A stretch of DNA of 64,000 nucleotides. Origin: Nitrospiraceae bacterium. Its GTDB lineage: Bacteria; Nitrospirota; Nitrospiria; Nitrospirales; Nitrospiraceae. Made by a program: the position numbers and the translations under genes. Position 1 is the first letter of the stretch. The number at the start of each line of letters is the position of its first letter. Positions 4,776 through 33,374 of the stretch are shown in pieces. Below the pieces are notes generated by a model, which saw nothing but the letters and a program-made list of their open reading frames with translations, was not told the origin of the DNA and searched no databases. Where the stretch lies: positions 1-64,000 of the forward strand of contig CAKKRE010000030.1 in NCBI GenBank assembly GCA_919902505.1, read 5' to 3'.

Positions 4776-5225
4776 AGCGTGTGTGTCTCCTTGTTGTCGT
4801 ACCCGTACGTAGGCGCCAGGATTCTCATGATTCCGCGAGCGCACAATTGCATCGCGGTACACTCCTGGGTTGACGACTGCGAATCTCAGAATAAAACGAG
4901 CGGAGTATCGCGGACGGAAGGGCGGTTGAATCGATCTTGCTAATCTACGGTCACAGAGTCGCCAGGAAGCAAAAGTGAAGCGGCTGATGATGTAGCGATC
5001 CAGGCATAGTGTATCACATTTGTTCATGCCGCATCGGCCACGTCTTACGACGGAGGTGCGCGGTCATTGTCGAGGTTCCTCAATCCCTGTGTGTAGTATG
5101 GTTCCACGAGCTGCTGCCGATTTGGCGGAAGCGGCGCACGAATAGGGCGTAAAACGGCTGATCGCTGATAATAATTATTGCCGCATAGAATCATGCTCTT
5201 GCATTGAGATCGGCGCTCCGGCACG

Positions 5226-5369
5226 TTGACACCACTCTCGCCGCCCTATAGGGTGAACCTATGACGTACTGAGCCACGCCGGCTTTCTCCTTTCGCGCGC
5301 ACTTTCTCTCTCCCCCTCACTCCCTGCGCGTGCGAGTCCCAAGTCTTCGCCGCTTCGACGCCACAGAAC
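5226..5369 (+). promoter_or_regulatory. Repeated promoter-leader element, copy A (upstream of microprotein cluster)
   Basis: TTGACA at 5226, TAGGGTG at 5249 and TATGACGT at 5260 are followed by GAGCCACGCCG, a long C/T-rich stretch and GTCTTCGCCGCTTCGACGCCA. The same succession at nearly the same spacing occurs at 8922-9055 and 12912-13043. I read TTGAC and TAGSGTG as promoter boxes, with transcription starting in or near TATGACGT. That gives a leader of about 220 nt before the first small gene at 5480. Confidence 0.6.
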
Positions 5370-5396
5370 AAGAGTCCAGCGATGGTCGGCCCGCAG

Positions 5397-5417
5397 TGAT
5401 CGGTCATTGACCGATCA
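5397..5417. promoter_or_regulatory. Perfect 21-bp palindrome in the leader
   Basis: TGATCGGTCA and TGACCGATCA flank a single central T, so 10 of 10 positions pair. In DNA it could be a TetR-like dimer site; in RNA it would form a hairpin about 60 nt before the small gene at 5480. Copies B and C of the leader lack this palindrome. Confidence 0.55.
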
Positions 5418-5479
5418 GTCGATCTACTCAGGATGGAGTCTTTTACCTACGGCAGATTCCCGCATCGAGGGAGGTTGCG

Positions 5480-5566
5480 ATGTGTCAAATTTGGACTCTC
5501 ATCGGAATCATGGTCTTCACGTGGGCTATTGCGATGGGGGCTAGTTACTCGGACGCTACTGCGTAG
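5480..5566 (+). CDS. 28-residue membrane microprotein
   Basis: The reading frame encodes MCQIWTLIGIMVF followed by TWAIAMGASYSDATA. One hydrophobic segment fills most of it, so a single-pass membrane peptide is likely. A strong ribosome site, GAGGGAGG, lies 5 nt before the ATG, which is the main evidence that this short frame is translated. It is the first of three co-directional small genes behind leader copy A. I do not recognise it; no function is proposed. Confidence 0.5.
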   Translation: MCQIWTLIGIMVFTWAIAMGASYSDATA

Positions 5567-5642
5567 ACAGACGATTCGAGTTACGAGTGCTCTTGAGGTC
5601 TCCTGCCAACCGGCAGGGATCTGATGACAGATGGAGGATACC

Positions 5643-5780
5643 ATGATGGCGCAGACGGTACTGTTCTGGGCCTCACACAATCTGTTTACGGTCGCGACGG
5701 TTTGCTTCTGTGGGGCCATGCTGAGCGTCATGCTGTACACCTATCTGTATGATTATGTGCTGGTGGCGAACGAGCGTTAG
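5643..5780 (+). CDS. 45-residue membrane microprotein
   Basis: The product MMAQTVLFWASHNLF... has one long hydrophobic helix (roughly residues 13-36, FTVATVCFCGAMLSVMLYTY) and a short tail LVANER. GGAGG lies 6 nt before the ATG. The size and single helix recall accessory subunits of membrane oxidases or transporters, but nothing here shows a partner. It lies 76 nt after the 28-residue gene; a CCTGCC-GGCAGG hairpin sits in the gap. Confidence 0.6.
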   Translation: MMAQTVLFWASHNLFTVATVCFCGAMLSVMLYTYLYDYVLVANER

Positions 5781-5827
5781 CCTGCTTCTGCAAGTTATCC
5801 GGTTGCCGATTAAGGAGATTTTATCCT

Positions 5828-6115
5828 ATGCGTATTCATCGAACAATCACCACCAGAGCATTGAGTCTTTTTGTGGCAACCGCTTGGTTGCTTGCCGTCT
5901 CACTGACCGTTCATGCCGCGGAACAGAAACCTGCTGTGGCCGTCGCGCCGGTCAAGTCCGTTGCCGTGGCTTCCGGCGCCGTCGAGGATACGCTGCCGAT
6001 TTGCCTGACGAGAATTCCTCAGGGGGCGACATCTGGGCAACGGATGATTGCCGAACAGAGTTGCCAGCGAGATGAATCCGATCGAGCATCCATGCGGGCT
6101 GTTCCTGGACGGTAG
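5828..6115 (+). CDS. Small exported protein of unknown function
   Basis: The 95-residue product has a clear signal peptide (basic start MRIHRTITTR, hydrophobic core, cleavage near VHAAEQ). A short mature part follows with two cysteines in the setting LPICLTRIPQGATSGQRM and AEQSCQRDE, which could form a disulfide. AAGGAG lies about 9 nt before the start. It is the last of three small co-directional genes after leader copy A and is probably periplasmic. The family is not recognised beyond a general resemblance to short exported Nitrospira proteins. Confidence 0.65.
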   Translation: MRIHRTITTRALSLFVATAWLLAVSLTVHAAEQKPAVAVAPVKSVAVASGAVEDTLPICLTRIPQGATSGQRMIAEQSCQRDESDRASMRAVPGR

Positions 6116-6254
6116 CCAGATCGTCCCGCATAGCTGCCTGCGCATGGATGTGGCCAGGTGCGGTGTGCCGGCTGTGCACGTGGCAGATGTAGCGGCCATT
6201 TTTTCGTGGCTCGGGGCTATGTTGAAGGGTGAGCAATGCAGGAAGGATGACCGT

Positions 6255-6551
6255 ATGCGTATGGAACATCGAGTTCGTTCAAGATCGGCCGGCCGGCCTG
6301 GTGCCGTCGAGGAGCGAATGGTGGCAGGGGCGAGTGAGACGCCTGCGGGAGTCGCTCGAAATATGCTTCTCGATATCAATAGGGCTGAGATTTCCCGACT
6401 CAAGTCGCTGCCCGGAATCGGCGAACATTATGCGAAGAAGATCGTGGAAGGGCGGCCTTACCATCATCGAGAAGAGTTGCTGACCAAAGAGATTTTGCCG
6501 GAATACATCTACAGCAGAATCATGGATCGACTGGTGGCAAGCCAGTCTTAG
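6255..6551 (+). CDS. Helix-hairpin-helix (ComEA-type) small protein
   Basis: The last 60 residues of this 98-residue product form a ComEA-like helix-hairpin-helix domain: LDINRAEISRLKSLPGIG, then YAKKIVEGRPY and a final helix ending LVAS. Such domains bind DNA backbone non-specifically. The first 40 residues are basic and low in hydrophobics, so unlike ComEA no membrane anchor is visible. ATG 6255 is chosen for AGGAAGG 8 nt upstream; the frame is open back to 6048, but that part looks non-coding. No competence genes lie nearby. Confidence 0.7.
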   Translation: MRMEHRVRSRSAGRPGAVEERMVAGASETPAGVARNMLLDINRAEISRLKSLPGIGEHYAKKIVEGRPYHHREELLTKEILPEYIYSRIMDRLVASQS

Positions 6552-6682
6552 GATTTGGGGGATGGGGTGATGTGCCTGGCATCGGATGCCTCGCGTATGA
6601 TGGCCATCCGGTATTGAATCACCGAGGTTGTTCTCTCTCATGAATGAGACGGGTGGCTCGAATGACCGGAAGGAACGACTGC

Positions 6683-7360
6683 ATGACGGACAATAGCAGG
6701 ACAGCAGGGATGGCGAGAAGGTTGTGGCTACGTCAGGCATCTTGGCGGGGCATGGCCCTCGTAGCAGCCATCAGCCTGCTGTTGGGCATCGTGCAGACCA
6801 CGGCCGCTTGGTCCGAGCAGGGTCCTACCGAGGCTGTGAAGGGGACCGTCTCCGAGCTGCTCTCTATACTCAAGGAACTCAAAGATCCGAGTCGCGCTGA
6901 GGCACGGCGATGGCAGATCGAACAGGTCATTCGACATCATGTGCACTACGAGGATATGGCGAAACGGTCACTCGGAGCGTCCTGGGGACAACTGAGTGAT
7001 GTGGCCCGGCGGGAGTATGTGGGGCTCTTTGTTCAGTTGCTTCGCGACGCGCTTGCGAACCGGATGGTGGAGTATTCCGGTGAACGGATCAGCTATCTCT
7101 CGGAGCAACGGGAGCGCACGTTCGCGCAGGTCAAAACACGGCTGGCCGGGAACAAGGTCGACACCTTCATCGACTTTCGTTTGGTCAGTCAGGACGGACG
7201 CTGGCTGGTCTACGACGCAGTGATGGACGGGGGGAGCCTGGTCGCGAGCTACCATGCGCAGTTCGCGAGTATCATTCGCGATGCCTCCTGTGCGCAGTTG
7301 ATGGAGCGAATTAAAGAGAAGACGCTGGTCGTGAAATTGTTTGAGAAGAGCGGGTCGTGA
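6683..7360 (+). CDS. MlaC/Ttg2D-family periplasmic phospholipid-binding protein, copy 1
   Basis: The 225-residue product has a signal peptide (hydrophobic stretch GMALVAAISLLLGIVQ, cleavage near AAWSEQ) and an MlaC-type fold. Family signs are the early helix with ELLSILKEL, YEDMAKRSLGASW, the FVQLLRDALANRM region and the strands ending in WLVYDAVMDGGSLVASYHAQF. MlaC proteins shuttle phospholipid between inner- and outer-membrane Mla parts. It is a paralogue of the gene at 23174-23824 and lies far from the mlaE-mlaF-mlaD operon at 38.2-40.7 kb. Start 6683 has GGAAGGAA upstream; earlier ATGs lengthen the N-terminus without benefit. Confidence 0.85.
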   Translation: MTDNSRTAGMARRLWLRQASWRGMALVAAISLLLGIVQTTAAWSEQGPTEAVKGTVSELLSILKELKDPSRAEARRWQIEQVIRHHVHYEDMAKRSLGASWGQLSDVARREYVGLFVQLLRDALANRMVEYSGERISYLSEQRERTFAQVKTRLAGNKVDTFIDFRLVSQDGRWLVYDAVMDGGSLVASYHAQFASIIRDASCAQLMERIKEKTLVVKLFEKSGS

Positions 7361-7415
7361 GGCGAGGGGCGCAATGGCACGATCACGAGCGGTCATGTCC
7401 CCGGGAGAGAGCGCA

Positions 7416-7604
7416 ATGAGATGTCCGCGTTGTTATGGTCCGATGATGATGATCAAAATGAAGGATATCGTGAGCGGGACGCTGGCCTATGGGTGGGGCT
7501 GCCGTCAATGCGGCGCAGTCATCGATTCGCTGATCGATATTCACCGCCAATGGCATCTGGAGCCCCGCGCGACCTGGGCGCATTTGGCCGTCGCTGCCTG
7601 CTAG
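7416..7604 (+). CDS. Small zinc-ribbon protein
   Basis: The 62-residue product has two CxxC pairs, MRCPRCYGPMMM and GWGCRQCGAVID, spaced as in zinc ribbons, and a short helical tail. It starts 55 nt after the MlaC-like gene on the same strand, with GGGAGAG before the ATG. It could be a zinc-binding adaptor or small DNA/RNA-binding protein; nothing narrows this down. Confidence 0.65.
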   Translation: MRCPRCYGPMMMIKMKDIVSGTLAYGWGCRQCGAVIDSLIDIHRQWHLEPRATWAHLAVAAC

Positions 7605-7706
7605 GTCACGCAATCACTTCCCCTGTCGTCGTAGGTTCGCATGACCGGTTATGGCGCCCGATGAGCGGAATTCCCGGTAGATATCAGGAAGAGTAAGGAG
7701 TGTGTC

Positions 7707-7874
7707 ATGTTGCATGCCGCGTTGATTGCTCTCGTGCTTGGACTCGTGGTTTGGGGGCTTAATTGGACCGGGCTCGCCGAGATGCCGACCCAGGTCTATT
7801 GGGTCTTTACAGTGGGGGGAATGCTGTTGATGCTGATCCACGTTGCGACAAGGCGACCGGCCCGCGTGTGGTAA
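7707..7874 (+). CDS. 55-residue membrane protein
   Basis: MLHAALIALVLGLVVWGLNW gives one hydrophobic helix and VYWVFTVGGMLLMLIH a second, ending in a basic tail RRPARVW, so a two-pass hairpin membrane protein is likely. AAGGAG lies 6 nt before the ATG. It is close behind the zinc-ribbon gene and 14 nt ahead of the exported protein at 7889, suggesting one transcript. No family recognised. Confidence 0.6.
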   Translation: MLHAALIALVLGLVVWGLNWTGLAEMPTQVYWVFTVGGMLLMLIHVATRRPARVW

Positions 7875-7888
7875 GGGGACCCATCACT

Positions 7889-8479
7889 ATGCGACTCCGC
7901 TATGCATGCATCATAAGCGCCGTGCTGGGAAATAGTGCGCCCTGCTTCAGTGAGGTCGAAGCTGCGAAGGAGTGGGCGCCGCAGGAGGTTACGGCAATTC
8001 TCGCGCAGTCGTATGCACAGCTGCTCATGCGACCGATGGGGATGGAGCCAAGTTCGCTTCAGAAGCACGAGGCGGACCAACAACGGTATATGGTGCAGTC
8101 CGGCTATGCGTTGCAGTTGGCAAAAGGGAAGAAAAGTGTGAAGCAGATTGTCGAGGCGATCGCCCTATCATCGGAATTTAACGCCAAGTGGATAACGCCC
8201 CACATGGGAACTGCGCAGACCGGATCGGCCCCGGGAGTACCGCCCGTGGCGGCCCCGGAAAAGGCCATCGATAGCCTGTACTGTGCGTTGTTAGGCCGGC
8301 GTGTGGATAGTGCGTCGTTGGCCAGCGCTCGCAAGGATTTGGTGAGTTCCGGCTTTGAACGGGTGATCCGTGACGTGATCGACGGGAAGGAATACCGAGA
8401 CCGTTTCGGTGACACCAAAGTGCCTCAGGTGAGCAGTGAGAAGCAGGCGGCAGTCGGTTGTCCGCAAGTGGCTCTGTAG
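7889..8479 (+). CDS. Exported protein with DUF4214 / phycobilisome-linker-like repeat
   Basis: The 196-residue product begins with a signal peptide (MRLRYACIISAVLGNSAPCFS). Two similar halves follow: residues about 35-105 (AQSYAQLLMRPMGMEP... ALSSEFNAKW) and about 130-185 (LYCALLGRRVDSASLASARK ... VIDGKEYRDRFGD). The pattern 'Y..LLGR..D...L' then 'FI.S.EYR.R' is that of DUF4214 and phycobilisome linker domains, which in non-phototrophs occur in secreted or surface proteins. AAGGGGAC precedes the start. Function unknown. Confidence 0.65.
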   Translation: MRLRYACIISAVLGNSAPCFSEVEAAKEWAPQEVTAILAQSYAQLLMRPMGMEPSSLQKHEADQQRYMVQSGYALQLAKGKKSVKQIVEAIALSSEFNAKWITPHMGTAQTGSAPGVPPVAAPEKAIDSLYCALLGRRVDSASLASARKDLVSSGFERVIRDVIDGKEYRDRFGDTKVPQVSSEKQAAVGCPQVAL

Positions 8480-8570
8480 CAGCGGTTCCGCGCAGCAGGC
8501 TCAGGATTCACTAGCGCAGGTGGCTTGACGGGACGGCAATAACCTCAGTGAAGGTGGGGGAGAAGCACGA

Positions 8571-8759
8571 ATGAGTATGACGCCGGAAGAACGCATCGCA
8601 AATATGACAAAGGCGATCAATCAAGCCATCAAGGTGATGGGGGATCGTTTCGGGTCGACAGAGGAAGATGTGGCGCGAGCTATCCAAGGACTGAAGGCCT
8701 CCATGCAGACGGCACCGCAGGAGAAGCCAGTGTCAGTCGGGGCCGCCACTCAGGCCTAA
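8571..8759 (+). CDS. Small hypothetical protein
   Basis: The 62-residue product (MSMTPEERIANMTKAINQAI...) looks like two amphipathic helices followed by an Ala/Pro/Gln-rich tail. GGTGGGGGAGAAG lies upstream of the ATG. It has no signal peptide and no recognisable motif. An imperfect hairpin follows at 8774-8804. Confidence 0.55.
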   Translation: MSMTPEERIANMTKAINQAIKVMGDRFGSTEEDVARAIQGLKASMQTAPQEKPVSVGAATQA

Positions 8760-8773
8760 GAGCTGCGGTGAAG

Positions 8774-8804
8774 CCTCACCGGGCCCACTGTCTGATCGGT
8801 GAGG
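8774..8804 (+). terminator. Hairpin downstream of 8571-8759, possible terminator
   Basis: CCTCACCG (8774-8781) pairs with CGGTGAGG (8797-8804). There is no T-run, so it may be a stabilising 3' hairpin or a Rho-dependent end rather than an intrinsic terminator. Confidence 0.35.
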
Positions 8805-8921
8805 TAGCCATGTGGTTCGGCGATGCTCCGATGTCTCTCGTCGTTGGGAGCATAGGTTTCATCTGTACTCCCGTGCTGTCTCTCGGCACGAGTCAACCTA
8901 CGGACTAGGCCTCAATATCGC

Positions 8922-9055
8922 TTGACTCCGATCGCCATAGCGCTTAGCGTGAAGGTATGACGTCTTTAGCTCCGCCGACTGTTCTCTCCCTCGCGCTTCG
9001 AGCCTCCATCCCGCGCGACTGATCGTCCGGTCTCCGCCGCTTCTTACGCCAGAGT
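8922..9055 (+). promoter_or_regulatory. Repeated promoter-leader element, copy B (upstream of the oxidoreductase operon)
   Basis: TTGACT at 8922, TAGCGTG at 8945 and TATGACGT at 8956 are followed by CTCCGCCGACTGT, a C/T-rich stretch (TTCTCTCCCTCGCG and CCTCCATCCCG) and GTCTCCGCCGCTTC with TACGCCAGAGT. It matches copies A and C in order and spacing. The inferred leader is about 230 nt long and runs to the IscA-like gene at 9188. Confidence 0.62.
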
Positions 9056-9187
9056 GCCCTGCACTGACCGTTGGTGCCGTCTTCGTGAACGGAGCGATTG
9101 TCGCTTCCGGCGAGGAGCGGTGTTCTGACCAGCAGTTCCATCCGACACCATTATCCGTTTCATATAGCAGTACAAGGGAGCACGAGT

Positions 9188-9508
9188 ATGATTACCATCA
9201 CGGCAACGGCTGAGGAGAAAATTCGCGAGTTGATGCTGGAAGAAAAAGATACGCTCGGGCTGCGTGTATATGTAAAAGGCGGGGGCTGCCACGGCTATCA
9301 ATATGGAATGGCGTTCGAGTCAAAGATGAGCGACGACGATACCGTGATTGAAAAGGGCGACGTGAAGGTGATCATGGATTCGCAAAGCGCTCCGCTGTTG
9401 AGTGGCTGCGAAGTCGACTATGTCGACAGCGTGCAGGGTTCGGGCTTTGCGATCAAGAATCCACAAGCCAAGACGACCTGCGGATGCGGGAGCTCATTCA
9501 GCGCCTAA
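9188..9508 (+). CDS. IscA/ErpA/HesB-type iron-sulfur cluster carrier
   Basis: A-type carriers deliver Fe-S clusters to apo-enzymes. The 106-residue product has the three conserved cysteines in GGGCHGYQYG and TTCGCGSSFS and the family core EEKDTLGLRVYVKGGGC and VDYVDS. Start 9188 is preceded by AAGGGAG. The gene is first in a co-directional set with the oxidoreductase subunit genes, which need [4Fe-4S] clusters; a dedicated carrier for that complex is an inference from position. Confidence 0.92.
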   Translation: MITITATAEEKIRELMLEEKDTLGLRVYVKGGGCHGYQYGMAFESKMSDDDTVIEKGDVKVIMDSQSAPLLSGCEVDYVDSVQGSGFAIKNPQAKTTCGCGSSFSA

Positions 9509-9565
9509 TTACAGCGTTCGTCGCGGTGTGTGCACTTTCGTCACTGTGACTGAAGGAGGCCCGCT

Positions 9566-10771
9566 ATGGATCCCACGTCCGTCATTGGAACCAAGAATAA
9601 AAAAGGCCAGGTCTTCACCGACCCCCGCATCATGATGCGGGAGGCCCCTCGTACGCCGTCGTTTTATACCGGCAGCGAAGTCATTAAGGAAGCCATCCGG
9701 CGCGCCAGTATCGACGTGATGATCGCCTATCCGATCACGCCACAAAGCGAGGCCGCTGCGTTGATCGGCGAGCTGTTTGCCGAGGGGTACATCGGAGACT
9801 ATTTCCGCGGGGAAAGTGAATTTGCCGTCATGTCGCAATGTGCAGGGGCCGCATTCGGTGGGGCCCGTGTCTTCACGACGACCGCAGGACCCGGCACGAT
9901 GCGGGCGATGGAAAACTTCCCCATGTGGGCGGGTGCCCGCTTGCCGATCCAATGCATCGTAACCTGTCGCGGGATCAACTCCCCGCTGTCGATTCAACCG
10001 GACACCATCGAGATCTCCTATCTGATGCAGACAGGCATGCTCGTCTGGCATGCGGAGACGGCACAGGACTTCTATGATTGGATTCTTATGGGCTATATGG
10101 TGTCGGAGGAGCCCGAGGTGCATTTACCATTGGCGCTCTGTTGCGATGGGTTCTTTGTGACGCATACCAAAGACGTCGTCGATCTGACCCCGACGGATAT
10201 GTGTCTGCCGCCCTATGATCCGTATCGGTCGCCGGTCCCCTGCATGGATATGGAATGTCCGCCTGTCCGGATGATGCGTGATCCGTTCATTATGAAGAGC
10301 AACTACATCAGTTATGCCACGCATGCGAGCTGGCAGCAGGAAGTCTGGGCTGCCGCAGAACGGTCCCGGAAGCACACGATCGCCTGGTTGAACGGGCTGA
10401 TCGAAACCGAAGACGTGGACGCCGATGTGCTCATTGTCACATCCGGTACCGCGGTATCTCAGGGGCGGGAAGCCATCCGTTTGTTGGCCGATGAAGGCAT
10501 TCGCGTGGGACTCGTGAAGATCAAAACGCTCCGGCCCTGGCCGGAAGAGGAACTTAAGGAAGCGACCAAGCACGCCACACACATCATTGTGCCGGAATTC
10601 AATGTCATCGGGTGGATGGCAAAAGAGATCAAGGCGACCATTCCAAGAAGTGAGCGCGTCATCGCCGGGCCGCGAGTGTGTGGCGGGATGACCATGCCGC
10701 CGGAGATTATCGTGGAAGAGATTAAGCGTGCACTTGGGGTGCGTTCTGGCACGCTCGCCGGTCGCGGGTGA
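9566..10771 (+). CDS. 2-Oxoacid:ferredoxin oxidoreductase, alpha subunit (pyruvate or 2-oxoglutarate type)
   Basis: The 401-residue product has the alpha-subunit hallmarks: AIRRASIDVMIAYPITPQSE (thiamine-diphosphate domain I), GESEFAVMSQCAGAA, VFTTTAGPGTM, and a C-terminal transketolase-C-like part (VLIVTSGTAVSQGREAIRLL). In the reductive TCA cycle such enzymes carboxylate acetyl-CoA or succinyl-CoA using reduced ferredoxin. Motifs do not decide between the two substrates. GAAGGAGG precedes the ATG. Genes for gamma and delta (ferredoxin-like) subunits are not in this window, so the complex must draw them from elsewhere or differ in composition. Confidence 0.9.
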   Translation: MDPTSVIGTKNKKGQVFTDPRIMMREAPRTPSFYTGSEVIKEAIRRASIDVMIAYPITPQSEAAALIGELFAEGYIGDYFRGESEFAVMSQCAGAAFGGARVFTTTAGPGTMRAMENFPMWAGARLPIQCIVTCRGINSPLSIQPDTIEISYLMQTGMLVWHAETAQDFYDWILMGYMVSEEPEVHLPLALCCDGFFVTHTKDVVDLTPTDMCLPPYDPYRSPVPCMDMECPPVRMMRDPFIMKSNYISYATHASWQQEVWAAAERSRKHTIAWLNGLIETEDVDADVLIVTSGTAVSQGREAIRLLADEGIRVGLVKIKTLRPWPEEELKEATKHATHIIVPEFNVIGWMAKEIKATIPRSERVIAGPRVCGGMTMPPEIIVEEIKRALGVRSGTLAGRG

Positions 10772-10853
10772 ATCGGAGAGGGTCAGACAACGAGAACGGT
10801 TTCGATACGGTGTGCAGCACATTGACGCTCAGCAGGGCTGAGAGGAGATAGGT

Positions 10854-11750
10854 ATGAGCAAAGAACGCATCAAGATTTCGCCGGATCTGTATGACATCAT
10901 GCCGTCGGATTACCAGGACCTGGTCAGTAGCGCCACGTACGGCAAGGAAGACCGGGGATGGAAGGACATCGGCACCTCCAAGGAACTGATCGAGCAGCAC
11001 TCACTGTGTGCCGGATGTCCTGAATCCATGGCATTTCGATATATTTTGGCGTCGCTTCCCAACCCCGAAGACACGGTCATGGTCGGCTCGACCGGCTGTA
11101 CGAGTCTCGTGTTTCCGATGGTGGCCGTCCACAACATTCACTCCCTGTTCGGGAATCAGAATGCCATTGCCTCGGGGCTCAAACGGGCCTTGAGTGTGCG
11201 TTTCCCTGATCGCGTGAAGGATGTGGTCGTGTTGGCGGGAGATGGCGCGACGGTGGACATCGGTTTGGACATGACGCTGCAGGCCTGGTTCCGGCAGGAA
11301 AAGTTCACGACCATTTGCTTCGATAACGAACTGTACGCCAACACCGGCGGGCAGGAGAGCGGTCTCATGCAGAAGGGGTTCGTGGCCAAAATGGCGCCGG
11401 TTGGAAAGTTGTTCGATAAGGTCCGCTTGCCTGAAATTGCCCGGGAGTCCGGCTGTCACTACGTGGTCAACTGCACGGTGAGCAAGCCGTCGCTGGTTGA
11501 GAAAGTGGTGCGCAACGCGGTGTTGATCGCGCGTGAAATCGGGCCGACCTATCTGCAGCTCTATACGCCCTGCATTCTGGAAATCGGCAAGAATAGCATG
11601 GAGGGTTTGCAGGAGATGCGGGATTCCGAGAAGCCCACGGAGCGGTTTGCCTTCAAGGAATATATCAGCGAGCCGGCGAAACAGCTCCTGGCGGAGCGTG
11701 ATGCGAAGGCCAAAGAAAAGAAAGCCGCTGCAAAGCAACTGGTGTCCTAA
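10854..11750 (+). CDS. 2-Oxoacid:ferredoxin oxidoreductase, beta subunit, first copy
   Basis: The 298-residue product has the TPP-binding segment VVLAGDGATVDIG followed by DNELYANTGGQES, and cluster cysteines in LCAGCPESM, later in STGCTSL and near the C-terminus in LYTPCILE. It carries the beta-subunit start region LYDIMPSDYQDLV. All expected catalytic positions are present. Its neighbour at 11803 is a clear homologue, so the operon encodes two beta-type chains for one alpha chain. A Lys/Ala-rich tail (AKAKEKKAAAKQL) is unusual for the family. GAGAGGAGA precedes the start. Confidence 0.9.
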   Translation: MSKERIKISPDLYDIMPSDYQDLVSSATYGKEDRGWKDIGTSKELIEQHSLCAGCPESMAFRYILASLPNPEDTVMVGSTGCTSLVFPMVAVHNIHSLFGNQNAIASGLKRALSVRFPDRVKDVVVLAGDGATVDIGLDMTLQAWFRQEKFTTICFDNELYANTGGQESGLMQKGFVAKMAPVGKLFDKVRLPEIARESGCHYVVNCTVSKPSLVEKVVRNAVLIAREIGPTYLQLYTPCILEIGKNSMEGLQEMRDSEKPTERFAFKEYISEPAKQLLAERDAKAKEKKAAAKQLVS

Positions 11751-11802
11751 GCGGTAGGATTATCACCGCCGCTTCCGCGGCCATGAGAGAGCGAGGTTTC
11801 AG

Positions 11803-12696
11803 ATGAGTCTTGATTATGTAAAGTTCACGCCCGGTTTCGAGCAGTTCATGCCGAAAGAATATCGGGATATGGTCGAGCATGGACCCTTTGGAAAAAAGAC
11901 GACGGTGTCACAGATGGGCAGCTTTAAGGAAATCCTGGAGGAGCACCCGATGTGTGCCGGCTGCGCCATGACCCTGTTCATCCGGTTGGCGATCATCGCC
12001 TTCCCGAATCCCGAAGATACCATTACCGTCGGGACGGCGGGCTGCGGCAGATTGGCCATTTCGCAAGCGGCGATTCCGTTCGTGTACGGCAACTACGGCG
12101 ACCAGAATGGTGTCGCGAGCGGTTTATCGCGGGGACTCCGGCTCCGTTTCGGCGACAAGCCGAAGGACGTGGTCGTAATCGCGGGTGATGGAGGAACCGC
12201 CGACATCGGGTTTCAGCAGGTGCTGCATTCCTGGTTTCGGAAGGAACGGTTCACGACCATCATGTTGGACAACGAGGTGTATGGCAACACCGGCGGTCAG
12301 GAAAGCGGGATGACGACCAGAGGCGCTGTGCTGAAAATGGCTCCGCTCGGAAAGAAGTTCGAGAAGATGGATATGGTCACGATGGCCAAAGTCGCCGGCT
12401 GTTCCTATATCGCCACGGTTGTGCCGAACAATCCGCGGCGGGTGGAAAGCGTCATCAAGAAGGCGGTGTTGATCGCCCGGGACATCGGCCCGACCTATAT
12501 TCAAGCGTATACCTCATGCAACATCGAGTATGCGATCCCGACCGACAAGGTCATGGAAGATGCTAAGACCGTTGAAGACGATCGTTACAAATTTACCGAG
12601 TATGTCAGCGACGAAGCGAAGGCGTACCTAGCAGAGCGCTATGGCTACAAGGAATTTATGCCGAAGGCCGTGCCTGCTTCAGTCACGACGGCCTGA
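11803..12696 (+). CDS. 2-Oxoacid:ferredoxin oxidoreductase, beta subunit, second copy
   Basis: The 297-residue product shares the whole layout of the upstream beta subunit: YVKFTPGFEQFMPKEYRDMV, cysteines in MCAGCAMTL and TAGCGRL, the TPP site AGDGGTADIGF and DNEVYGNTGGQESG, and a late cysteine in AYTSCNIEY. Both copies therefore look catalytically competent. The two could serve different oxoacids, form a mixed complex, or be used under different conditions; the sequence does not decide. It lies 52 nt after copy one, and a strong hairpin follows at 12737-12766. Confidence 0.9.
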   Translation: MSLDYVKFTPGFEQFMPKEYRDMVEHGPFGKKTTVSQMGSFKEILEEHPMCAGCAMTLFIRLAIIAFPNPEDTITVGTAGCGRLAISQAAIPFVYGNYGDQNGVASGLSRGLRLRFGDKPKDVVVIAGDGGTADIGFQQVLHSWFRKERFTTIMLDNEVYGNTGGQESGMTTRGAVLKMAPLGKKFEKMDMVTMAKVAGCSYIATVVPNNPRRVESVIKKAVLIARDIGPTYIQAYTSCNIEYAIPTDKVMEDAKTVEDDRYKFTEYVSDEAKAYLAERYGYKEFMPKAVPASVTTA

Positions 12697-12736
12697 GTAG
12701 TCTTGAAGAATAAGTAGTATTCTCCAGGCTTGCTGT

Positions 12737-12766
12737 GGCGGGCAGGAACTGAACCTCCTGCCCGCC
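12737..12766 (+). terminator. Strong hairpin ending the oxidoreductase operon
   Basis: GGCGGGCAGGA pairs perfectly over 11 bp with TCCTGCCCGCC around an 8-nt loop. The following bases CAGTTTGCT are only weakly T-rich, so termination strength is uncertain, but the position 40 nt after the last beta gene fits an operon end. Confidence 0.6.
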
Positions 12767-12911
12767 CAGTTTGCTAGGCTTTGGGCAGCATTTGACTGTA
12801 ATTGATCCTGATCCATCACACTGCCCCATACGGGCGCCTCTCTCGAGTCTTGCCGGAAATAATTAAGTCGCTTGGAATCAAAGGCTGCCTCCTCGCCCCT
12901 CGCAGCTTCCG

Positions 12912-13043
12912 TTGACACGGCCGGTTGTGCCCTTGTAGGGTGGGGTATGACGTGTTGAGCCACGCCGACTGTCCCATCTTGCGCGCCCCCTTCCATCCTT
13001 TGCGCGTTTGATTCCCCGGTCTTCGCTGCTTCTACGCCAGAGT
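12912..13043 (+). promoter_or_regulatory. Repeated promoter-leader element, copy C (upstream of the CsbD-like gene)
   Basis: TTGACA at 12912, TAGGGTG at 12936 and TATGACGT at 12946 are followed by TTGAGCCACGCCGACTGT, a C/T-rich stretch (CCCCCTTCCATCCTTTG) and GGTCTTCGCTGCTTCTACG ending CCAGAGT. It agrees with copy A in GAGCCACGCCG and with copy B in CGCCGACTGT and GCCAGAGT. The inferred leader to 13139 is about 190 nt. Confidence 0.62.
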
Positions 13044-13138
13044 TTCCATCTCAGACCACCAGGTCTCGGCATGCGTTCGCGCGTGTCAGCCCTCACAACG
13101 GTGTGGCGCTGTGCTCGCCACCGATAAAGGAGAATGCA

Positions 13139-13381
13139 ATGACACAGGAACAGTTCCAACAGTTCTGGCTGCAGCTCAAAGCTCCCCTCAAGGCCAACTG
13201 GAACAAGATCACTGAAAGCGATCTCGGCGAAATCCAGGGTAGCCTGGTGAAGTTCGGTGATGTGCTTCAGAAGCGTTATGGTGAGGGCCACAAGGATGAA
13301 GTCAGCCTCTGGGCTGACCGCCGGCATGCGCATTGGAGCGGAAATTACATCGGCTATAAAGATCCAAAGCCGACCGCCTAA
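13139..13381 (+). CDS. CsbD-like small stress protein
   Basis: The 80-residue product (MTQEQFQQFWLQLKAPLK...) has the pattern ANWNKITESDLGEIQGS followed by VLQKRYG that marks CsbD-type proteins, small helical proteins linked to stress responses in many bacteria. The C-terminal 25 residues (WADRRHAHWSGNYIGY) are not part of that domain. AAAGGAG lies 7 nt before the start. It sits directly downstream of leader copy C. The assignment rests on pattern recognition and is moderate. Confidence 0.6.
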   Translation: MTQEQFQQFWLQLKAPLKANWNKITESDLGEIQGSLVKFGDVLQKRYGEGHKDEVSLWADRRHAHWSGNYIGYKDPKPTA

Positions 13382-13467
13382 TTCGGTGCCTCCGTTCAGG
13401 AAGTCGATTGCTATCGGTGGGCCGCGCGCCCTCGCTTGCGATAAGAAACAGAAAGAGAGTACGTGCG

Positions 13468-13812
13468 ATGAGAAAAATCGTCATCAACAAGAGTTACGAT
13501 CAGTTCTGCTTGAGCCATAAAGCGTTCCTGCGTTTGCGTGAGTTGGGTCAGCCGGATGCGCTCAAGGAGACGGATCTGGGGGCCTACTGGCCCTCAGCGG
13601 CCGGTTCTCAGGAGCCGAGCCTCAACCAATGCGGCATGTTGATTCCACGCGACGACAAGCGGCTGGTTCAGGTGGTGGAAGAACTGCAGGGAGAAGCCAA
13701 TGGCCATTGTGCCGAACTGAAGGTCGTGTCGATCCCAGACGACGTGTCGTGGGTGATCGCGAAAGCAAATGGAAGCGAGCACGTGAGCGAACAACATCGC
13801 ACGTGGGCTTGA
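13468..13812 (+). CDS. Conserved hypothetical protein (family ending in a HRTW motif)
   Basis: The 114-residue product has the architecture of a widespread uncharacterised family. It starts MRKIVINKSYDQFCLSHKA, continues with IPRDDKRLVQVVEEL and GHCAELKVVSIPDDVSWVI, and ends HVSEQHRTW. Start 13468 is chosen because the family begins at the MRKIVIN strand; AAAGAGAG lies upstream. It follows the CsbD-like gene by 86 nt and may share its transcript. No catalytic residues can be named. Confidence 0.75.
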   Translation: MRKIVINKSYDQFCLSHKAFLRLRELGQPDALKETDLGAYWPSAAGSQEPSLNQCGMLIPRDDKRLVQVVEELQGEANGHCAELKVVSIPDDVSWVIAKANGSEHVSEQHRTWA

Positions 13813-17063: not shown

Positions 17064-17345
17064 TTATGATCCGGACGGTCGACGAGTGGCGCGAGTGGCA
17101 CTCGTACGGGCATGGGCACGCGCAGGGCGTGCCTGGGTCTGTTCTGATCGGGCACGGGTCTCTGCCCCGAACCCTGAACTGGCCAGGTTCGTGACCGCAC
17201 GACGGATTTCATCCATCGGCGTCTCCGGCGAGTCCACAGAGGGATCGACGAGTCCGAGCTGTGTCCAACGGATTCTGAGCTTCGGGACCGTGCGCTTTTT
17301 CTTGTGATTGGGTTTGTTGCCGCGCCAGACGGACGTAATTTTCAT
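17064..17345 (-). CDS. Small basic hypothetical protein
   Basis: The 93-residue product has an N-terminal conserved-looking part (MKITSVWRGNKPNHKKK, IRWTQLGLVDPSVDSPETP) and a low-complexity Ala/Arg/Thr C-terminus. AAAGGAG lies 7 nt before the ATG. It is 54 nt upstream of the ATC-start gene and probably shares its transcript. The function is unknown; the C-terminal half is compositionally biased and might not be conserved. Confidence 0.5.
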   Translation of the reverse strand: MKITSVWRGNKPNHKKKRTVPKLRIRWTQLGLVDPSVDSPETPMDEIRRAVTNLASSGFGAETRARSEQTQARPARAHARTSATRATRRPSGS

Positions 17346-18060
17346 CGTACACTCCTTTCGGCGAACAACAGGATGGCGATGTCCAGGCCATCAAACTGGT
17401 TGCAGTGGGTCGGGCATGCGGTTCGGACCACTGCTTTGCCCATTTCCTTGCCCGCTGAATGGGGGAAATGGGCCGTAGGAGGAGCGTAAGTTAAGGAAGC
17501 GATCGCGCCGTGATAGGGGCGGAAACGCGAAGCGTGGGATTTCGCTCGGGACTCGTACGGTTCAGCAATTTATCATGCTTTCCATAGTCCGGTCAAATGA
17601 GCGACGGCGCTGCAAGGGAAACGGCTGGTATGCAGTAAACGCCCCTTGCCCATATTGCCCCTGGGCCTGCCTGTTTCCGGGTTTAGCCTGTGAGTCATGA
17701 GTCTGAACAATAGGCCTGGCTGACACAGGGTGGCTCCCAGTGGGGCGACAAGCAATATTGTGAGTGGACTTTTCTCCAGGCTAAGAGTGTGCCGGCTTGC
17801 GAAAGGCTGCGGCGATTTTTTATTTCCAAATGAAGAATCCTGGTGTAGCGTGAATGGCAAAGGCATGAAGGCTACACCAGGGAATTCCTTCTCCAACATC
17901 GCCGGGGGGGCCGTTTGTGATCGATGGGCCGACCGCTTGACCAGTTCGTATAGAGTTCGCTTCTCTTCACTAGTCGAAGTGCATTGCATTGGGGGCGTTG
18001 TGACCTGATAGCGCGCTGAGACGGTTCCCTGGTGAGTAGATTGGGCAGGAGTCGACGTGA
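17346..18060. other. 715-bp region without a convincing gene; contains two long hairpins
   Basis: Two structured spots stand out. GCCCATTTCC (17438-17447) pairs with GGAAATGGGC (17463-17472). CCTGGTGTAGC (17839-17849) pairs perfectly with GCTACACCAGG (17871-17881), extendable outward with a one-base bulge by GAAT/ATTC. Open frames in the region lack ribosome sites and family-like sequence. A small RNA is possible around 17830-17890. Confidence 0.4.
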
Positions 18061-33050: not shown

Positions 33051-33374
33051 TTAGAAGCGGCTGCGTCCGCCGCGGTTTTCACCGCCGCCGAACCGTCCAC
33101 CCCCGCCGCCGCCACCGGAGCGAGCTTCTTGCGGCTTCGCTTCATTGACGGTGAGCTGCCGGCCATCCATGTCCGAGCCGTTCAACGCCGTGATGGCTGC
33201 CTTCGCTTCCTCTGCCGTGGACATTTCCACGAAGCCGAAGCCGCGCGATTGTCCGGTGAACTTGTCCGTGATCACGCGCGCCGATTCAACGGTGCCGTGA
33301 GTGGAAAACAAGTTGCTCAGTTGCGATTCAGTTGCAGCATACGGCAGTCCGCCGACATACAATTTAGTACCCAT
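33051..33374 (-). CDS. RRM-type glycine-rich RNA-binding protein
   Basis: The 107-residue product is one RRM domain with RNP2 KLYVGGLPY and RNP1 RGFGFVEM, followed by an Arg/Gly tail (GGGGGGGRFGGGENRGGR). Such short RRM-RGG proteins are common in cyanobacteria and Nitrospira and are often cold- or stress-induced RNA chaperones. AAAGGAGA precedes the start. A 365-bp gap upstream may hold a long leader. Confidence 0.93.
   Translation of the reverse strand: MGTKLYVGGLPYAATESQLSNLFSTHGTVESARVITDKFTGQSRGFGFVEMSTAEEAKAAITALNGSDMDGRQLTVNEAKPQEARSGGGGGGGRFGGGENRGGRSRF

Follow-up and report, generated by a model that had tools for sequence, protein, structure and literature searches.

A covarying hairpin at the predicted 5' end of the transcripts of many small Nitrospirota operons

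From sequence, a structured RNA was identified with which the mRNAs of many small Nitrospirota operons are predicted to begin. The element is a single unbranched hairpin of about 95–110 nt, in which the 5' strand begins at the predicted transcription start and pairs with a strand ∼90 nt downstream; a spacer of class-constant length separates it from the first gene and its ribosome site. Three copies lie in the window (the whole 64-kb stretch of Nitrospiraceae DNA that was analyzed), where the earlier note had described a promoter-plus-leader element repeated ahead of unrelated operons. We conclude that the element is probably a multi-operon 5' leader RNA, observed to date in Nitrospirota.

The repeated element proved to be real, and all three copies were found in place with every downstream block. 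TTGAC starts at positions 5226, 8922 and 12912, the TAGGGT or TAGCGT box starts 23, 23 and 24 nt past it, and TATGACGT starts at 5260, 8956 and 12946 in copies 1, 2 and 3, respectively; TATGACGT by itself is weak evidence (three occurrences vs. 0.76 expected, and at least three in 4 of 100 shuffles). In a promoter scan of 116 copies, the promoters were located on the forward strand at 5226..5254 (TTGACA, 17-nt spacer, TAGGGT), 8922..8950 (TTGACT, 17-nt spacer, TAGCGT) and 12912..12941 (TTGACA, 18-nt spacer, TAGGGT). The leader hairpins, on the same strand, span 5262..5363 (fold z −1.44), 8958..9051 (z −0.32) and 12948..13039 (z −2.38), the fold of copy 2 alone being weak, with 75 of 200 shuffles equally good. 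The whole element was far above chance: the covariance model R1 matched 5259–5368 (E 2.0e-22), 8955–9056 (E 1.2e-19) and 12945–13044 (E 1.2e-26), where the E-values were computed against the whole 4.24-Mb genome and the scores are not independent, since R1 was built from 28 sequences including the three window copies. Beyond these copies, R1 gave no match at E ≤ 1 in the whole 4.24-Mb genome. A weak, divergent fourth leader-like hairpin was found on the reverse strand at 17466–17565 with the broader model R2 (E = 0.0036 genome-wide); it has a promoter-like TTGACC-N18-TAAATT sequence and precedes an ORF at 17345–17064, and similar DNA was present in three of the ten relatives' stretches examined (R2 E 4.7e-5 to 0.017 there). 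R2 also scored the antisense strand of copy 2, because the element is a hairpin.

The R1 matches of copies 1, 2 and 3 end 111, 131 and 94 nt before the start codons of the first genes (ATG at 5480, 9188 and 13139), all of which are on the forward strand together with the genes behind them. Copy 1 leads an ORF with a GAGGGAGG site that encodes a 28-aa membrane-like microprotein (MCQIWTLIGIMVFTWAIAMGASYSDATA; 5480..5566), followed by an ORF for a 45-aa membrane-like protein of cluster c12 (5643..5780); no Pfam family was found for either product. Copy 2 leads a gene for an ErpA/IscA-type Fe–S carrier (9188..9508; PF01521, E 3.5e-21; NF010147 ErpA above its cut-off), and this is followed by the genes for a 2-oxoacid:ferredoxin oxidoreductase alpha subunit (9566..10771; PF01855, E 1.5e-58), a beta-type subunit (10854..11750; PF02775, E 4.4e-17) and a second beta-type subunit (11803..12696; PF02775, E 1.8e-18). 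Copy 3 leads a YjbJ/CsbD-like gene of cluster c0 (13139..13381), whose product matched NF007748 at E 1.9e-6, under the cut-off of that model, and the E. coli YjbJ chain 1ryk_A at E 3.1e-4, with no Pfam match; the second gene (13468..13812; cluster c1) encodes a 114-aa protein for which no Pfam or NCBIfam family was found. The suggested tie to carbon fixation is weaker than first put. The genome has a further oxoacid:ferredoxin oxidoreductase alpha gene, with 83% identity to the query as compared with 90% for the alpha gene of the window, and R1 found no element there, so the operon led by copy 2 appears to be an extra copy.

All three window copies have the same long hairpin, with loops rich in pyrimidines, and it was supported by covariation. 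In an alignment of 131 matches, double-sided changes were observed at 21 of the 25 pairs and 92.7% of 3229 cells were paired, the counted structure being partly derived from the same sequences and the alignment fitted to that structure. None of 500 shuffles reached any of five measures, and all six slid versions were far lower. As an indicator of strand, the paired cells held 244 G-U against 36 A-C combinations, an excess of G-U much of which column composition alone would give (268 G-U and 64 A-C in the shuffled alignments). The loop at the hairpin tip varies in length and is rich in pyrimidines, which account for 83% of the unpaired positions in the tip and 88% in the internal loops (96–99% in the internal loops of the upper part, and 66–90% in the basal ones, one of which is an A). 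A 4 × 4 pyrimidine loop and its adjacent helices are strongly conserved in sequence, and past the hairpin the conservation drops in the c4 and c0 classes and less so in c5. The observation that conservation reaches beyond the promoter boxes into the presumed transcript was upheld, and the covarying hairpin that makes up the leader explains it. With Rfam 15, only two rRNA matches were obtained in the window at the curated threshold, no match up to E 1 at 4800–13800, and a single tRNA at 10 further member loci; the hairpin would be a new RNA family. A literature search for regulatory RNA of Nitrospira found no paper, and a table in a review counts three annotated small RNAs for the phylum (PMC9029176).

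A TTGACN-N17/18-NANNNT promoter was present upstream of 103 of the 116 strong copies and in 32 of 3382 control windows. In 100 of the 103 promoter-bearing copies, the −10 box ends 5–8 nt before the first paired base, and the mRNA is therefore predicted to begin with the hairpin; this phase and the covariation together support a promoter with a presumed transcribed leader. The remaining 13 strong copies have other sequence upstream, which argues that the hairpin does not arise merely as part of one promoter. Four of these 13 fit a candidate second promoter type that occurs in 6 of 3630 control windows, the pattern having been drawn up after inspection of the copies, so that a second type is only suggested. 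Outside the called ORFs, the window yielded ten promoter-like sites, and at five of them four or more of the first 12 nt were paired to a strand over 55 nt distant. These five include two element copies, which have the highest pyrimidine fractions (0.78 and 0.67; others 0.36–0.60), copy 3 having been missed in this survey by the crude mask or pattern.

Covariance-model matches were obtained in 67 (R1) and 70 (R2) of 295 sampled Nitrospirota genomes, at 1 to 12 copies each; in Nitrospira moscoviensis the element lies ahead of a YjbJ-like gene (L258). Four pattern matches on viral contigs, one of them also matched by the model, though marginally (L302, E 0.005), were left out of the counts. A same-strand gene was called within 260 nt downstream of 101 of the 131 matches, and 96 of these genes fall in ten recurrent families, including YjbJ/CsbD-like proteins, ErpA/IscA with oxoacid:ferredoxin oxidoreductase, DUF1328 (frequently followed by BON and Hsp20 genes) and small proteins of unknown function. 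As in the window, the operons led in many Nitrospirota genomes are unrelated, and the copies do not lie mostly away from gene starts in the manner of a mobile repeat. In those 101 matches the start codon is 29–245 nt, mostly 50–160 nt, past the element, with tight spacing per family (ErpA/IscA, 126–140 nt, n = 20; DUF1328, 114–149 nt, n = 16; YjbJ-like, 80–135 nt, n = 31). The first called gene was more than 260 nt away in 23 matches, and none was called in seven. Three of these seven are at most about 310 nt from where a stretch ends, one is another copy matched on its antisense strand, and family-like short ORFs were discerned by eye at two of the other three (L113 and L150). Two loci (L097 and L128) each carry two back-to-back copies, with ErpA/IscA on one side and DUF1328 on the other, each on its own strand; opposed pairs also occur at six further loci (L195, L207, L214, L215, L228 and L232). 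On the compensatory changes in its structure and its predicted position in the 5' UTR, on the same strand as the gene, the element would qualify as a candidate structured cis-acting leader.

We favor, at about even chances, the explanation that the hairpin provides shared post-transcriptional control of a stress/accessory regulon through its paired 5' end and a factor on the pyrimidine loops. The paired 5' end would shield the mRNA from 5'-end-dependent decay, and the pyrimidine loops may be where a shared trans-acting factor docks, in the simplest case an RNA-binding protein, which would set the lifetime or translation of the led mRNAs together. The fuller statement, that in a stress regulon specific to Nitrospirota one 5'-terminal rod with a single factor on its loops coordinates mRNA lifetime or translation for at least ten unrelated operons, those of nitrite oxidizers too, from more than one promoter type, is put at somewhat less than even. 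A search for the factor by co-occurrence did not single out a candidate: all 29 genus genomes have RRM and cold-shock-domain families, whether or not they carry the element. The c1 protein was found in 18 of the 29 genomes, each of which belongs to the 21 that carry strong elements, and it was absent from the eight that do not. Because c1 is encoded by the second gene of a led operon, its co-occurrence is not independent evidence.

The earlier note had also proposed that the pyrimidine-rich part pairs with the ribosome sites, and specific pairing of this kind was not supported. The mean energy was −8.72 kcal/mol for cognate loop–site pairs and −8.64 kcal/mol for permuted ones, 33.6% of 2000 permutations being at least as good. 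Native loop order gave a mean of −8.72 vs. −8.32 kcal/mol for shuffled order and had the advantage in just 45 of 97 cases; the native-minus-shuffled difference was −1.69 in the YjbJ-like class (n = 31), −0.91 in c6 (n = 6) and −0.18 in c12 (n = 7), and zero or positive in the other five. Pairing may occur within the YjbJ-like class, because its cognate loops were predicted to beat the loops of other classes (−8.71 vs. −7.17). The mean predicted openness of the ribosome site was lower with the element (0.31 vs. 0.43), without specific loop pairing. As a whole, the first reading is supported in its promoter, its predicted transcribed leader and its unrelated operons, and not in the specific pairing. 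C-rich-loop small RNAs elsewhere mask purine-rich ribosome sites, and the hairpin might likewise be cut from the mRNA and act in trans on other mRNAs through its C/U-rich loop. The pyrimidine-rich unpaired positions, the ready pairing with ribosome sites, cognate or not, at about −8.7 kcal/mol, and the multiple copies per genome agree with such a small RNA; we regard it as rather unlikely, given the constant distance of the copies ahead of a same-strand gene, the few matches without a called gene (7 of 131) and the poor showing of native loop order.

A riboswitch, with conserved internal loops that recognize a metabolite or ion and alter operon expression, would suit the strong conservation of the 4 × 4 loop and neighboring helices. 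It is less probable still, as the target genes share no evident pathway, the hairpin is unbranched, the ribosome site is outside the element, and no conserved switching part was seen in the spacer of the c4 and c0 classes, which is poorly conserved (that of c5 is partly conserved). An RNA thermometer or cold-shock leader is unlikely on the predictions, and slightly more so than a riboswitch. Hsp20 genes lie behind some copies, and 42 of 116 copies agree with TGACGTACAGA at 9 or more of its 11 nt within their first 20 nt (0.07% of control windows), a resemblance chosen after the fact that counts as one event because the copies are related. TGACGTACAGA is an 11-nt motif at the 5' end of cspA that we take to be the cold box, as read in E. 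coli K-12 DNA; a different consensus is given in one cold-box paper, and this sequence in none of those consulted. Against this reading, the predicted mean openness of the ribosome site, which the element does not include, was nearly flat from 15 to 50°C (0.29 to 0.33; 96 leaders), and R1 found no match up to E 10 at the E. coli cspA locus and none at the six Nitrospira cold-shock loci searched. A leader that acts from the 5' end on RNA polymerase, by antitermination or in a Rho-related way, would fit the C-rich loops and the predicted transcript start of diverse operons; it is very unlikely with led genes that are mostly short and pyrimidines that are held in a structured rod. The least credence is given to a DNA-level feature, an operator or mobile repeat: the hairpin is an imperfect inverted repeat that recurs in the genome, and its fixed phase to promoter and gene, the compensatory changes, and the many G-U and few A-C cells speak against it.

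Nitrospira drives nitrite oxidation and complete nitrification. If the shared control by the hairpin is true, a multi-operon leader whose carriers include Nitrospira moscoviensis would give a testable handle on post-transcriptional gene coordination in slow-growing bacteria. Among known systems, ROSE-type RNA thermometers precede several small heat-shock operons and cover the ribosome site; the Nitrospirota element likewise is one structured 5' leader before several stress operons per genome, whereas its start codons are mostly well past the hairpin and little temperature effect is predicted. The 5'-terminal position and the TGACGTAC-like start recall the E. coli cspA leader, with the differences that no covariance match was obtained between them and that no scanned first-gene class matches the cold-shock domain. 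The alphaproteobacterial CCUCCUCCC ('cuckoo') small RNAs have C/U-rich exposed loops and are associated with small stress genes, as here, but the Nitrospirota element occurs in a different phylum, as a long hairpin whose distance to the following gene is set. The ompA mRNA carries a stabilizing stem-loop at its 5' terminus, and the predicted position of the hairpin at the transcript start is the same; the Nitrospirota hairpin differs in being longer, conserved in sequence and common to many unrelated operons.

The three element copies claimed in the earlier note were found in the sequence at the positions stated there, and folding of all three (copy 1, 5262-5363; copy 2, 8958-9051; copy 3, 12948-13039) gave one common long hairpin, regularly interrupted. 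From its base, the hairpin consists of a basal stem, AGC/GCU, CG/CG, a GACUG/CGGUC-type helix, a short helix and CGCGC/GCGCG, set apart by loops that are mostly symmetric; a pyrimidine-rich loop closes the tip. The basal stem pairs UG-CGU with ACG-CA in copies 1 and 2; copy 3, folded by itself, has a shifted variant of it. The z-scores of the single copies were -1.44, -0.32 and -2.38, respectively, so that folding by itself would not have carried conviction. Searches of the genome with the covariance model R1 and its broader successor R2 found three strong copies, all inside the window. Upstream of this leader cluster, positions 1-1135 hold the 3' portion of a 23S rRNA gene together with a 5S rRNA gene.

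When copy 3 was used as a DNA query, matches were obtained in 20 of the 29 genus genomes (E <= 0.001). R1, built from a 28-sequence alignment (A2), matched 22 of the 29 at E <= 1, or 21 without the marginal G010 (0.3). In a covariance-model search of the kind proposed in the earlier note, the element recurred among the sampled Nitrospirota: R1 matched 67 of 295 genomes in 15 of 135 genera (E <= 0.1), and R2 matched 70 genomes in 17 genera (E <= 0.01), each of these genomes holding 1 to 12 matches. The three genomes gained by R2 had weak matches (E 1.0e-5, 6.5e-5 and 0.0067). Most of the matched genomes belong to the window's own family; five come from two other families of the order and G142 from one family of the class, with a weak match in another family of the class and a marginal one elsewhere in the phylum. 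A strict-pattern DNA scan of an 84,980-species genome collection returned at least 118 stretches. Among the 80 matches listed, 78 were named Nitrospira, Nitrospirae, Nitrospiraceae or Nitrospirota (with Nitrospira moscoviensis, N. defluvii and N. lenta) and two, one of them L235, were labelled Nitrosospira; R1 matched 79 of these 80 loci at E <= 0.01, missing L193. Neither the three copies in the window nor ten other loci matched any Rfam family, and no earlier description was found in literature searches of open-licence papers.

A divergent weak relative of the leader (17466-17565, minus strand), with a promoter-like TTGACC-N18-TAAATT site, precedes a basic 93-aa ORF (17345-17064). DNA 82-91% similar to it was found in three of ten relatives' stretches, taken at guessed coordinates, and the CCGUA/UACGG arms were kept in the similar stretches. 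A very weak R2 match on the same contig outside the window (L364 12358-12453, minus strand; E 0.011 in a separate search) is probably due to chance, since it was absent from the whole-genome R2 list up to E 10.

The structure was tested on 131 R1 matches (E <= 0.1; alignment A3) from the window and 95 loci chosen because they already held matches; one match (L174 3454-3555, minus strand) is another copy read on its antisense strand. Paired cells made up 92.7% of A3, against 28-47% for slid versions of the structure. The compensating base changes that the earlier note had proposed to look for were present, with double-sided changes in 21 of 25 pairs (111 cells), and none of 500 shuffles reached any measure. 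In the 116 matches that scored 55 bits or more, paired cells included 244 G-U and 36 A-C (268 and 64 in shuffled columns), counts that fit an RNA of the transcript strand and are partly explained by column composition. Unpaired positions in these matches were 88% pyrimidine internally and 83% at the tip; by height, the upper loops were 96-99% pyrimidine and the basal ones 66-90%, one being A.

Of the 116 strong copies, 103 have a TTGACN box followed by NANNNT (mostly TAGGGT, TAGCGT, CAGGGT or TAGCAT), with spacers of 17 nt (80 copies), 18 nt (22) or 19 nt (1); so have 32 of 3382 control windows. In 100 of these 103 copies the end of the -10 box lies 5-8 nt upstream of the first paired base, and the usual distance from a -10 box to the transcription start puts the predicted start at the hairpin base. 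The leader does not depend on a single promoter, since 13 strong copies lack the TTGACN promoter, eight of them preceding c11- or c20-type genes (protein clusters of led genes). Two weaker elements without a TTGAC promoter (L095 4089-4200 and L118 930-1044) precede a small c9 gene of unassigned function; farther on the same strand, both stretches carry a desaturase-like gene (fatty-acid; by eye) and L095 an RRM gene. The RRM domain match in the window (33153-33362, minus strand) is one of three in the genome, and every one of the 29 genus genomes carries one or more.

With a simple gene caller, the first same-strand gene lay within 260 nt in 101 of the 131 matches and farther away in 23, none being called in seven; several of 15 matches inspected by eye had short ORFs with ribosome sites about 100-210 nt away. 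The earlier note had also suggested looking for a constant set of downstream genes: ten recurrent clusters hold 96 of the 101 first genes, namely c0 (YjbJ/CsbD-like, 31), c4 (ErpA/IscA, 20), c5 (DUF1328, 16), c11 (7), c6 (6), c26 (5), c31 (4), c12 (3), c49 (2) and c9 (2), with five singletons. Among cluster representatives, Pfam identified c5 as DUF1328 and c4 as Fe-S_biosyn, matched c6 below cut-off, and gave no family for c0, c1, c9, c11, c12, c26, c31 or c49; the c0 protein weakly matched YjbJ models (NF007748, E 1.9e-6, below cut-off; 1ryk_A, E 3.1e-4). DUF2934, BON, Hsp20, YtxH and PepSY were matched deeper in the led operons. Homologues of several led proteins are stress proteins elsewhere, so the led operons may form a stress regulon, but most led classes have no assigned function. 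In both L097 and L128, two copies lie in opposite orientation, each at the head of one of two divergent transcripts. Taken together, the element is very probably a conserved leader RNA shared by multiple operons and located at the predicted 5' end.

The stretch at 5480-6115 shares with L126, L130, L150 and L153 a recurrent 28-32-aa membrane-like microprotein of the MYQIYSLVGIIVLLWGITIWAS type and a protein of periplasmic appearance that carries a conserved segment of the ASG-EDT-RIP type; the libraries searched gave no clear family for either. Beside the YjbJ-like gene, 13468-13812 encodes a conserved 114-aa protein of no assigned function, with relatives in 18 of the 29 genus genomes, all 18 carrying strong elements.

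Copy 2 does lead the oxoacid:ferredoxin oxidoreductase operon, as the suggested tie to carbon fixation had it, but that link is uncertain, the led enzyme being probably an extra copy. The genome holds a paralogue of its alpha subunit (G000:C22:41651-42844), where R1 found no element, and a more distant alpha on contig G000:C3. One alpha copy at 83-85% identity (two in G014) occurs in each of the eight genus genomes that have no strong element, in G004, whose single element lies elsewhere, and in two more genomes of the family; a more distant copy is also present in all of these. The operon itself (9566-12696) has a single alpha subunit gene and two beta-type (TPP) ones that differ from each other. 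For a published N. moscoviensis transcriptome, OGOR and POR are reported as highly expressed; small RNAs had been removed, and leaders are not treated in the portion of that text covered (PMC6606698).

As to the mode of action, pairing of the loops with the ribosome site, as proposed earlier, was not supported overall as specific, the YjbJ-like class being a possible exception. Predicted ribosome-site openness was somewhat lower with the element than without it (0.31 versus 0.43; 96 leaders) and little affected by temperature, and the predicted pairing was about evenly split among the tip, other element parts and the spacer. Composition accounts for most of this effect, because openness was 0.28 for native leaders, 0.29 with the tip shuffled and 0.35 with the tip changed to A (48 of 97 leaders). 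Action through 5'-end protection and a common loop-binding factor is proposed and is about as likely as not. The 5' end of many copies is similar to the cspA cold box, with agreement at 9 or more of 11 in 42 of the 116 copies, but the R1 search gave no match in the cspA locus.
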